Shown one piece after another: positions 28,379-31,788 of a stretch of 33,224 nucleotides of DNA; positions within the stretch are counted from its first letter, which is position 1; each line of letters starts with the position of its first letter. The notes beneath the pieces are model-generated. The model made no database searches. It was not told the origin of the DNA and saw nothing but the letters and a program-made list of their open reading frames with translations. A program made the translations under genes and the position numbers. Origin of the DNA: Candidatus Edwardsbacteria bacterium (GTDB lineage: Bacteria; Edwardsbacteria; AC1; EtOH8); assembly GCA_018821925.1 (NCBI GenBank), contig JAHJLF010000007.1, positions 1 to 33,224 of the forward strand, read 5' to 3'.

Positions 28379-28384
28379 GATTTG

Positions 28385-29770
28385 ATGAACGAGCCTGATA
28401 AAACAAAAATCATTGACACCCACGCCCACCTGACCAAGAGCGACTACAAAAACGACCGGGATCAGGTCATCAAAAGAGCGCAGGATGCCGGCGTGGAGTA
28501 TATAATCAACGTCGGCTACGATCTGAAGACCAGCCGGGCCTCGGTGGAGCTGGCCGAGAAGCACGACTGTTGCTATGCCGCGGTGGGCATCCATCCCCAT
28601 GATGCCAAAACTCTTGATGAAAAAACCTTCAAAGAACTGGAAGTTTTGGCTAAAAATCCCAAGGTAGTGGCCATCGGCGAGATGGGCTTGGATTTCCACC
28701 GGAACCTGTCCCCCAAAGAAATCCAGGTCGAAGCTTTCAAAAAACAGTTGGCCTGGGCGGAAACGCTTAACCTGCCGGTGGTGGTTCACGACCGCGACGC
28801 CCATCAAGAAGTGATGGACATTTTAAAAGAGCATCCTGGTCTCAAAATTGTCCTTCATTGTTTTGCCGGGGATGTCGAAATGGCCAAAGAGTCCAAGCGG
28901 CGGGGCTATTTGCTGTCGGCAGGCGGGCCGATTACTTTCAAGAATTCCAAGCATCTTCCCGAAGTGCTTAAAACAGTGGAACTGGAGAGCCTGATGCTGG
29001 AGACAGACTGTCCCTACCTGGCTCCGGAGCCGCACCGCGGCCAGCGCAACGAGCCGGCTTATCTGGAGATCATTGCCAGGAAAGTGGCGGAGATCCTTTC
29101 GCCACTGACTTATGATGACGTCTGCCGGGTTACCACCCTGAATGCCAAAAAGTTCTTCAACATCGGAAGAATAGACCCGGCCAAGATCGCATATCAGATA
29201 AGAGATTCACTCTACCTGAACATCACAAATCGCTGCACCAATTCCTGCCTGTTCTGCATCCGACAGAAGACAGACTTTATCAAGGGGCACAACCTTAGGC
29301 TGGAGCGGGAGCCGGATTTCCAGGAGGTAGTTGATGCCATCGGCGATCCATCAAAATATCGGGAGGTGGTCTTCTGCGGCTACGGCGAGCCGCTGCTGCG
29401 CCTGGATCTGGTCAAGCAAGTGGCCGGCTGGCTTAAAAGCAAAAAGACCCATGTGCGGATCAACACCAACGGACAAGGCAACCTGATCGCCGGGCGTGAT
29501 ATAATTCCCGAATTAAAAGGCCTGATAGACGAAGTCTCCATCAGCCTCAATGCCGGAGATCAGGAGACCTACGACAGGATCTGCCCCAGCCGGTTCTCCG
29601 ACAAGGCCTTTGCAGCGTTGCTGGACTTTGCCAAGGGCTGCCGGTCGGCGGGAATAAAAACAACCGTAACGGTAATGGATATGCCGGGAGTTGATATAGA
29701 GAAGGCAAAGCAGACGGCCAAGGAGCTGGGGGTAAATATTCGCATCAGGCATTACGATGTGGTGGGATAG
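28385..29770 (+). CDS. TatD-family metal-dependent hydrolase fused to a TatD-linked radical SAM domain
   Basis: The 461-residue protein has two enzymes in one chain. Residues 1-265 are a TatD-type nuclease: DTHAHL (11-16), VGIHPHD, GEMGLDFHR, VVHDRDAH, LHCFAG and ETDCPYLAPE supply the metal ligands. Residues 270-461 are a small radical SAM domain with the cluster motif CTNSCLFC (C284, C288, C291), GYGEPLLR and INTNGQG. This corresponds to the TatD-linked rSAM family (TIGR04038 type), found fused to or next to tatD; its substrate is unknown. It follows the YigZ gene by 6 bases and precedes rsmA by 3, so they are co-transcribed. I chose the ATG at 28385 over the adjacent upstream TTG. Confidence 0.95.
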   Translation: MNEPDKTKIIDTHAHLTKSDYKNDRDQVIKRAQDAGVEYIINVGYDLKTSRASVELAEKHDCCYAAVGIHPHDAKTLDEKTFKELEVLAKNPKVVAIGEMGLDFHRNLSPKEIQVEAFKKQLAWAETLNLPVVVHDRDAHQEVMDILKEHPGLKIVLHCFAGDVEMAKESKRRGYLLSAGGPITFKNSKHLPEVLKTVELESLMLETDCPYLAPEPHRGQRNEPAYLEIIARKVAEILSPLTYDDVCRVTTLNAKKFFNIGRIDPAKIAYQIRDSLYLNITNRCTNSCLFCIRQKTDFIKGHNLRLEREPDFQEVVDAIGDPSKYREVVFCGYGEPLLRLDLVKQVAGWLKSKKTHVRINTNGQGNLIAGRDIIPELKGLIDEVSISLNAGDQETYDRICPSRFSDKAFAALLDFAKGCRSAGIKTTVTVMDMPGVDIEKAKQTAKELGVNIRIRHYDVVG

Positions 29771-30594: not shown

Positions 30595-31464
30595 ATGATA
30601 AAAAATATCTTCATTTCAATGCGGCCCAGACAGTGGACAAAAAACCTGATAATATTCGCCGGCCTGATATTTTCCCAGAATTTAGGCCATCCGCTGCTGC
30701 TGGCCAAAACCATCATCGCCGTTGTCCTGTTCTGCGCCATTTCCGGAGCTGTCTATATTATTAATGATATTCTGGATTACAAATCCGATCAATTGCATCC
30801 GGTAAAAAAACAAAGGCCCATTGCCAGCGGCGCCCTGCCCCGGTCAGCCGCTTTGGCAGCAGCGGTGATACTGGGCTTTGCCGGATGCGCAATAGCGTTT
30901 TTGATAAACCTGCCGTTCGGTATGGTGGCGCTCTCCTATCTGCTGTTGATGCTGGGCTACAGCCTGTGGCTCAAGCGTCTGGTGATAATAGATGTATTCG
31001 TGATTGCGGCGGGATTCGTCATGAGGGCGGCGGCCGGTGCTGAGGCTGTCAGTGTGCCTATCTCCGACTGGCTGCTGATCTGCGTGATATTGTTGTCGCT
31101 GTTCCTGGCCCTGGCCAAGAGAAGGCAGGAGATGAAAACCATGGAAAATGAAGCTGTCGTCCATCGTCAGACCCTTTCCGATTACAGCGACAAACTGCTG
31201 GACCAGATGATCGCCGTGGTTACTGCTGCGGTGGTCGTCAGCTACAGCCTTTACACCATGTGGCCGGAGACGGTGGAAAAATTCGGGACCAGTAATTTGA
31301 AATTCACCATACCTATCGTGCTGTACGGCATATTCAGATACCTCTACCTTATCTACCGGAAAAACCAGGGCGAACAGCCGGAGACGGTGCTTTTGACCGA
31401 CCGCTGGCTGCTGTCCAGCTTGGTGGTGTATGTCCTGGCGGTGTGGCTGATAATCTACCAATAA
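30595..31464 (+). CDS. UbiA-type prenyltransferase (decaprenyl-phosphate phosphoribosyltransferase-like)
   Basis: The 289-residue integral membrane protein has seven to nine predicted helices. It has both UbiA Asp-rich motifs: NDILDYKSDQLHPVKKQRPI (57-76) and the second around YSLWLKRLVIIDVFVIAAGF. The N-terminal MRPRQWTKNLIIFAGLIFS is typical of the Rv3806c-like branch that transfers phosphoribose to decaprenyl phosphate for cell-envelope sugar donors; the substrate here is an inference. It is the last gene of the operon starting at 27989 and is followed by a bidirectional terminator. A downstream polysaccharide deacetylase hints at envelope glycan work nearby. Confidence 0.9.
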   Translation: MIKNIFISMRPRQWTKNLIIFAGLIFSQNLGHPLLLAKTIIAVVLFCAISGAVYIINDILDYKSDQLHPVKKQRPIASGALPRSAALAAAVILGFAGCAIAFLINLPFGMVALSYLLLMLGYSLWLKRLVIIDVFVIAAGFVMRAAAGAEAVSVPISDWLLICVILLSLFLALAKRRQEMKTMENEAVVHRQTLSDYSDKLLDQMIAVVTAAVVVSYSLYTMWPETVEKFGTSNLKFTIPIVLYGIFRYLYLIYRKNQGEQPETVLLTDRWLLSSLVVYVLAVWLIIYQ

Positions 31465-31467
31465 AAA

Positions 31468-31491
31468 AGGCCCCCTGTTATTAGGGGGCCT
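31468..31491. terminator. Bidirectional Rho-independent terminator (UbiA gene / rpsU)
   Basis: AGGCCCCCT (31468-31476) pairs perfectly with AGGGGGCCT (31483-31491) with a 6-base loop. On the minus strand it is followed by six Ts, making a strong terminator for rpsU. On the plus strand ATTATTT follows, giving a weaker one for the UbiA gene. Confidence 0.92.
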
Positions 31492-31507: not shown

Positions 31508-31690
31508 TTAAATTCCGATCTTGGCTTTTCTGGTTCTGGCCTTGGCTGATTTCAGCCTTTTGCGAATGCTGGGTTTCATGAAATACTCGCCTTTGCGGAT
31601 ATCGGCCAGCAAACCTTCCTTGATACACTTGCGCTTAAAGGTTCTTAAAGCTTTATCGAATGAATCATTGCTTTCAACGGTTACCTTCGT
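31508..31690 (-). CDS. rpsU: Small ribosomal subunit protein bS21, probable ACG start codon
   Basis: bS21 binds the 30S subunit near the 3' end of 16S rRNA. The 60-residue product (KVTVESNDSFDKALRTFKRK, then EYFMKPSIRKRLKSA, with a basic tail) aligns with bS21 from its first residues. The codon at the expected initiator position, 31690-31688, is ACG. There is an in-frame TGA three codons upstream, and the first in-frame ATG lies far inside the gene (the M of EYFMKP). A 9-base SD (GGAGGTGAT) stands 5 bases upstream. So ACG is the only reasonable start unless the base is an error. It has its own promoter (31760-31788) and a strong terminator. In enterobacteria rpsU precedes dnaG-rpoD; here it is 15 kb from them. 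Confidence 0.93.
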   Translation of the reverse strand, partial: TKVTVESNDSFDKALRTFKRKCIKEGLLADIRKGEYFMKPSIRKRLKSAKARTRKAKIGI

Positions 31691-31695
31691 ATTAA

Positions 31696-31704
31696 ATCAC
31701 CTCC
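31696..31704 (-). promoter_or_regulatory. Extended SD of rpsU
   Basis: GGAGGTGAT on the minus strand is complementary to nine bases of the 16S rRNA 3' end. It is 5 bases before the ACG start. AATC and GATT flank it and could form a weak 4-bp hairpin with the SD in the loop. Most genes in this window have little or no SD, so this one stands out. Confidence 0.85.
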
Positions 31705-31759: not shown

Positions 31760-31788
31760 AATATACAACATTTTAAGCGTTTTGTCAA
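31760..31788 (-). promoter_or_regulatory. Promoter of rpsU
   Basis: TTGACA (31788-31783) and TATATT (31765-31760) are separated by 17 bases on the minus strand. The sequence just before and through the -10, ATGTTGTATATT, is identical to that of the promoter at 33113-33140. The predicted 5' leader is about 60 bases. The rest of 31789-31898 holds no further feature I can support. Confidence 0.8.

Follow-up and report, generated by a model that had tools for sequence, protein, structure and literature searches.

The single rpsU gene of this Edwardsbacteria genome is probably translated from an ACG codon. Initiation at this poor codon would be rescued by a 9-bp Shine-Dalgarno (SD) helix, and the codon would have been selected for a low output that is sensitive to initiation stringency (a reading to which we assign a probability of about 0.6). 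The parts of this reading differ in strength. The sequence comparisons support well that ACG is a true weak start offset by a strong SD. What they show directly is that ACG is conserved, that no other start is available, that the SD is present and that the initiator tRNA anticodon and the anti-SD are normal. From this we infer that ACG is where translation begins, that output is low, that the codon is under selection and that there is feedback.

Contig C7, from a genome of 2.44 Mb, makes up the window (the whole stretch of 33,224 nucleotides that was analysed). Close relatives of this genome in public records carry the labels Candidatus Edwardsbacteria and UBP2. Membership of bS21 was defined by matches to both PF01165 and TIGR00030 above their curated cut-offs, and the rpsU product matches PF01165 (Ribosomal_S21; E=3.4e-17, 62.3 bits, cut-off 27) as well as TIGR00030 (S21p; E=1.2e-19, 69.9 bits, cut-off 28.95). 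The gene is present in only one copy. The features used below, all in the window except the last, are:

31508..31690, minus strand: rpsU coding sequence for bS21, with 60 sense codons counting ACG, closed by TAA; PF01165 and TIGR00030 matches, coding-type divergence from codon 2
31513-31511, minus strand: last codon of rpsU, followed by the stop TAA at 31510-31508 (coordinates confirmed)
31688..31690, minus strand: ACG initiator codon, the same in 9/9 family genomes with rpsU (four genera), canonical start out of reach
31691..31695, minus strand: spacer TTAAT from SD to ACG; spacer length by genus 5 nt (g1, g4), 4 nt (g3) and 3 nt (g2)
31696..31704, minus strand: SD GGAGGTGAT, 9 nt, perfect complement of the 16S 3' end, invariant within the family
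31760..31788, minus strand: promoter-like TTGACA-17-TATATT, with similar TTGACA...TATAT elements upstream in other genera
31468..31491, minus strand: terminator-like intrinsic hairpin, then a T run, read from the sequence
G000:C74:7897-8151, minus strand: infC (L064), ATT start (g1)

A leader of about 60 nt separates the promoter-like element from the SD, and rpsU appears monocistronic. Its terminator hairpin (31468-31491) abuts the end of a convergent UbiA-like prenyltransferase gene (30595-31464). Elsewhere in the window, a single ORF (28382-29770) appears, from its translation only, to fuse a TatD-like nuclease part with one that is radical-SAM-like and has CxxxxCxxC-type cysteines. No conserved leader structure was found at rpsU: the local RNA folds around the start differ between genera, and a riboswitch-like or ribosomal protein-binding structure is therefore not proposed.

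The earlier note had read the rpsU frame as starting with ACG, behind an in-frame TGA and with no ATG, GTG or TTG nearby. Both points and the minus-strand coordinates (ACG at 31690-31688) were confirmed. The TGA sits within the SD (AGG TGA TTT AAT ACG), and no in-frame ATG, GTG or TTG occurs from this TGA up to codon 27. The codon preceding ACG is AAT in g1 and g4 and TTT in g2 and g3, neither of which is usable as a start. ACG occupies the start of rpsU in all nine family genomes that carry the gene (G000-G006, G008 and G009); a tenth, G007, with a completeness of 88% and without an rpsU match, lies outside this count. The same ACG, behind CGGAGGTGAT as in the family genomes, is found in four public MAGs that were retrieved separately and overlap with the former set, some probably being identical assemblies. 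An ordinary ATG start in relatives, named beforehand as the observation that would speak against ACG, was encountered in none of the family genomes examined, ACG and the SD being kept. However, the conservation was sampled in four genera and hence in few independent lineages, which counts against the proposed explanation.

ACG and ATG are a single base apart, as a one-base sequencing or assembly error would produce, but eight other family genomes carry the same ACG; this refutes an assembly error and leaves such an origin with practically no probability. It is also very improbable that ACG is not the start, and that translation begins instead at an internal TTG or ATG, further upstream in combination with a frameshift, or at an ACG edited in the RNA. 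The rpsU gene of genus g2 (L012 1400-1800) does contain an internal AAAGGAGGGGTTGATG, with a canonical-looking start at codons 24-28. However, this internal ATG is absent from the other genera, and codons 2-26 evolve as coding sequence: for each genus pair, 12-20 of the 25 third positions differ, against 1-7 differences at first or second positions. No upstream start lies within reach and, to our knowledge, C-to-U editing that creates start codons is known in plastids and not in bacteria.

The distance from GGAGG to ACG is 7-9 nt in the family, making the 9-bp SD both strong and well spaced. The changes in spacer length between genera indicate that ACG is kept in register with the protein frame and not with the SD. 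No third base is common to all four genera in codons 2-26, whereas that of ACG is. Threonine codons of the genome are ACC in 74% of cases and ACG in 11%, so that the start ACG is not simply the favoured threonine codon. Regulation of rpsU is likely because a single C-to-T transition would restore ATG; ACG remained unchanged while third positions turned over, which argues that ATG was selected against. This pattern suggests that poor initiation has been retained to control the amount of bS21.

A possible though rather unlikely alternative gives ACG no regulatory purpose: an ancestral ATG-ACG (Met-Thr) would have lost its ATG, the strong SD making ACG an adequate start that was then inherited. 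In an alignment, ACG indeed falls on the second residue of other bS21 proteins, where Met is followed by Thr, Pro, Ala or Ser. Moreover, a distant relative (L021) reads ATG ACG behind GGAGGTGAT, and strong SDs before rpsU, widespread in bacteria generally, are in line with such an inheritance. However, ATG lies one transition away and is found in none of the four genera despite their heavily diverged third positions.

The SD itself, GGAGGTGAT, is a 9-nt perfect match to the 3' end of 16S rRNA (GGATCACCTCC), which carries a standard anti-SD (GGATCACCTCCTTTCT). Its predicted duplex with 16S rRNA reaches -18.4 kcal/mol, compared with -16.8 kcal/mol for the best of 420 called gene starts in 630 kb, and it ranks as the strongest of the 421 sites compared. 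The claim that this SD is a perfect 9-base match far stronger than that of most genes is borne out by these values. Another copy of GGAGGTGAT (G000:C43:48905-48913, L113) precedes GGC ATG and could serve as a second, equally strong 9-nt SD. A reading of the 72 genomic GGAGGTGAT sites as SDs was rejected, nearly all of them lying inside ORFs on either strand. Other genes of the genome use SDs to a fair extent: 116 of the 420 starts are at or below -8 kcal/mol, compared with 55 mock sites, with a G-rich peak between -12 and -6.

These results bear on a mechanism of the type described in Flavobacterium, in which ribosomes bearing bS21 hide their anti-SD and those lacking it translate the strong-SD rpsU. 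The earlier note had suggested such an occlusion and autoregulation, and we consider it quite unlikely here. The leading position of the rpsU SD among the 421 starts does recall Flavobacteriales (PMC9976891). However, the mechanism requires an occluded anti-SD, and the Edwardsbacteria genome uses SDs elsewhere. The Tyr54 of Bacteroidia bS21 is also missing, its position being occupied by Thr or Ser in the family (a position extrapolated one residue past the end of the 7jil alignment, 3-52 to 4-53). Finally, strong SDs are general in rpsU: among 95 genes from outside the family, the median energy, computed with the Edwardsbacteria 16S tail, is -16 kcal/mol and 16 SDs are at least as strong as that of Edwardsbacteria. 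bS18 was found in the genome. The original interpretation thus stands for a real conserved ACG with a compensating SD, present in every relative found, and is unsupported for the Flavobacterium-like part. Control by stringency of the IF3 type would fit at least as well, and bS21 may act sterically close to the SD helix in a way other than that of the Flavobacterium model, as is mentioned for E. coli (PMC13009471).

The proposed reading, a selected weak start rescued by its SD, involves the initiator tRNA. Its anticodon is the normal CAT in g1, g2 and g4, the three genera in which a mutated initiator tRNA reading ACG was looked for and not found, so that its middle base would be mismatched with that of ACG. 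The CAU anticodon would pair with only the first and third bases of ACG, making initiation intrinsically poor, and the 9-bp SD:anti-SD helix would rescue it by keeping the 30S subunit at the site. The poor codon would be kept by selection and bS21 output would be low. This output would be sensitive to initiation stringency, most likely through the IF3-governed rejection of mismatched starts, as for infC, and perhaps also to the prior presence of bS21 on the 30S subunit that initiates. In a stronger version, the family would possess a dedicated, selected ACG whose second-position mismatch forms with the 9-bp SD a sensor of 30S composition, subunits lacking bS21 tolerating the mismatch; this version appears unlikely. 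Two points count against the main reading: bS21 is a ribosomal protein needed in quantity, for which a very weak start is odd, and the leader shows no conserved structure.

The initiator tRNA of g1 (L238-L241, G000:C35:29445-29512) has C33 (loop CCCATAA) where g2 and g4 keep the usual U33. The corresponding 13-mer also occurs in G005 and, among 386 genomes searched, in 14 outside the family, tRNA identity having been checked for part of them.

IF3 is present in all ten family genomes. Their infC genes (L063-L072) start with ATT in g1 and g2, with ATC in g4 and, in g3, with TTG or ACT, always preceded by a GGAGG-containing SD. This strengthens the analogy drawn previously with infC and its AUU start. 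What marks an infC-type start is also seen in rpsU, namely no available ATG, GTG or TTG and the same non-canonical codon in 9/9 relatives with the gene.

Outside the family, the 95 distinct rpsU genes start with ATG (66), TTG (16) or GTG (13) and none with another codon, starts being assigned as the nearest canonical codon. The share of GTG or TTG (29/95) is high for a ribosomal protein gene. A weak start combined with a strong SD may be a wider rpsU trend. L025, considered as a second non-canonical rpsU, was rejected as a GTG is present at codon 4. With infC as the exception, no second clear gene requiring such a start was found among 424 called genes in 630 kb, contig edges and one probable frameshift aside (calls came from our own simple caller, with canonical starts only, from which short genes may escape). 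A search for viral bS21 relatives found none, the 10 viral pattern matches encoding other products than bS21. In the literature, ACG starts among the matches listed are eukaryotic, organellar or viral, and natural bacterial examples are hardly documented. The literature searched, whose coverage excludes most subscription journals, yielded no ribosomal protein gene with a family-wide ACG start. Conserved weak starts backed by strong SDs are an already known kind; the new element is the ACG, family-wide and in a gene for a ribosomal protein.

Such a conserved ACG provides a clean natural test of how the strength of an SD trades off against a mismatch in the start codon. It also bears on whether initiation stringency sets the level of bS21, a protein central to work on specialised ribosomes. 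In practice, gene callers limited to ATG, GTG and TTG will miss or truncate Edwardsbacteria rpsU. If ACG initiates with Met, the N-terminus of bS21 would be MKVTVESNDSFDK or KVTVESNDSFDK; otherwise TKVTVESNDSFDK or a later start would be expected.

A first close parallel is infC, as known from E. coli and also seen in this family, which encodes IF3, starts with AUU, AUC or AUA and is autoregulated through discrimination by IF3. Both genes belong to the translation apparatus and have a conserved start other than AUG behind an SD, and in both stringency is a possible sensor. However, the gene here is rpsU, the mismatch falls at the second codon position and sensing is only proposed. In S. aureus, infC (AUA), cvfC1 (AUU) and ccpN (AUA) have conserved non-canonical starts behind extended SDs, and in poor medium the output of the starts tested was about 10% of that from AUG (PMC13009471). 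The combination of a conserved weak start and an extended SD is the same, although the lowered output was measured there and is proposed here, and Edwardsbacteria differ by phylum, by the codon (ACG rather than AUA or AUU) and by the ribosomal protein gene concerned. In Flavobacterium johnsoniae, rpsU is autoregulated and has an exceptionally long SD, with no ACG start mentioned (PMC9976891). The long SD on rpsU is shared with Edwardsbacteria, but nearly all other Flavobacterium genes lack an SD and its bS21 has the Tyr54 contact, whereas Edwardsbacteria use SDs and lack Tyr54. A last comparison concerns rpsT (bS20), which differs from Edwardsbacteria rpsU in its start, UUG being far more efficient than ACG. 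In gamma-proteobacteria, autoregulation through this UUG start of rpsT has been proposed and is considered unproven in a review (PMC10931766). Like Edwardsbacteria rpsU, it is a ribosomal protein gene whose weak start is proposed to serve autoregulation.
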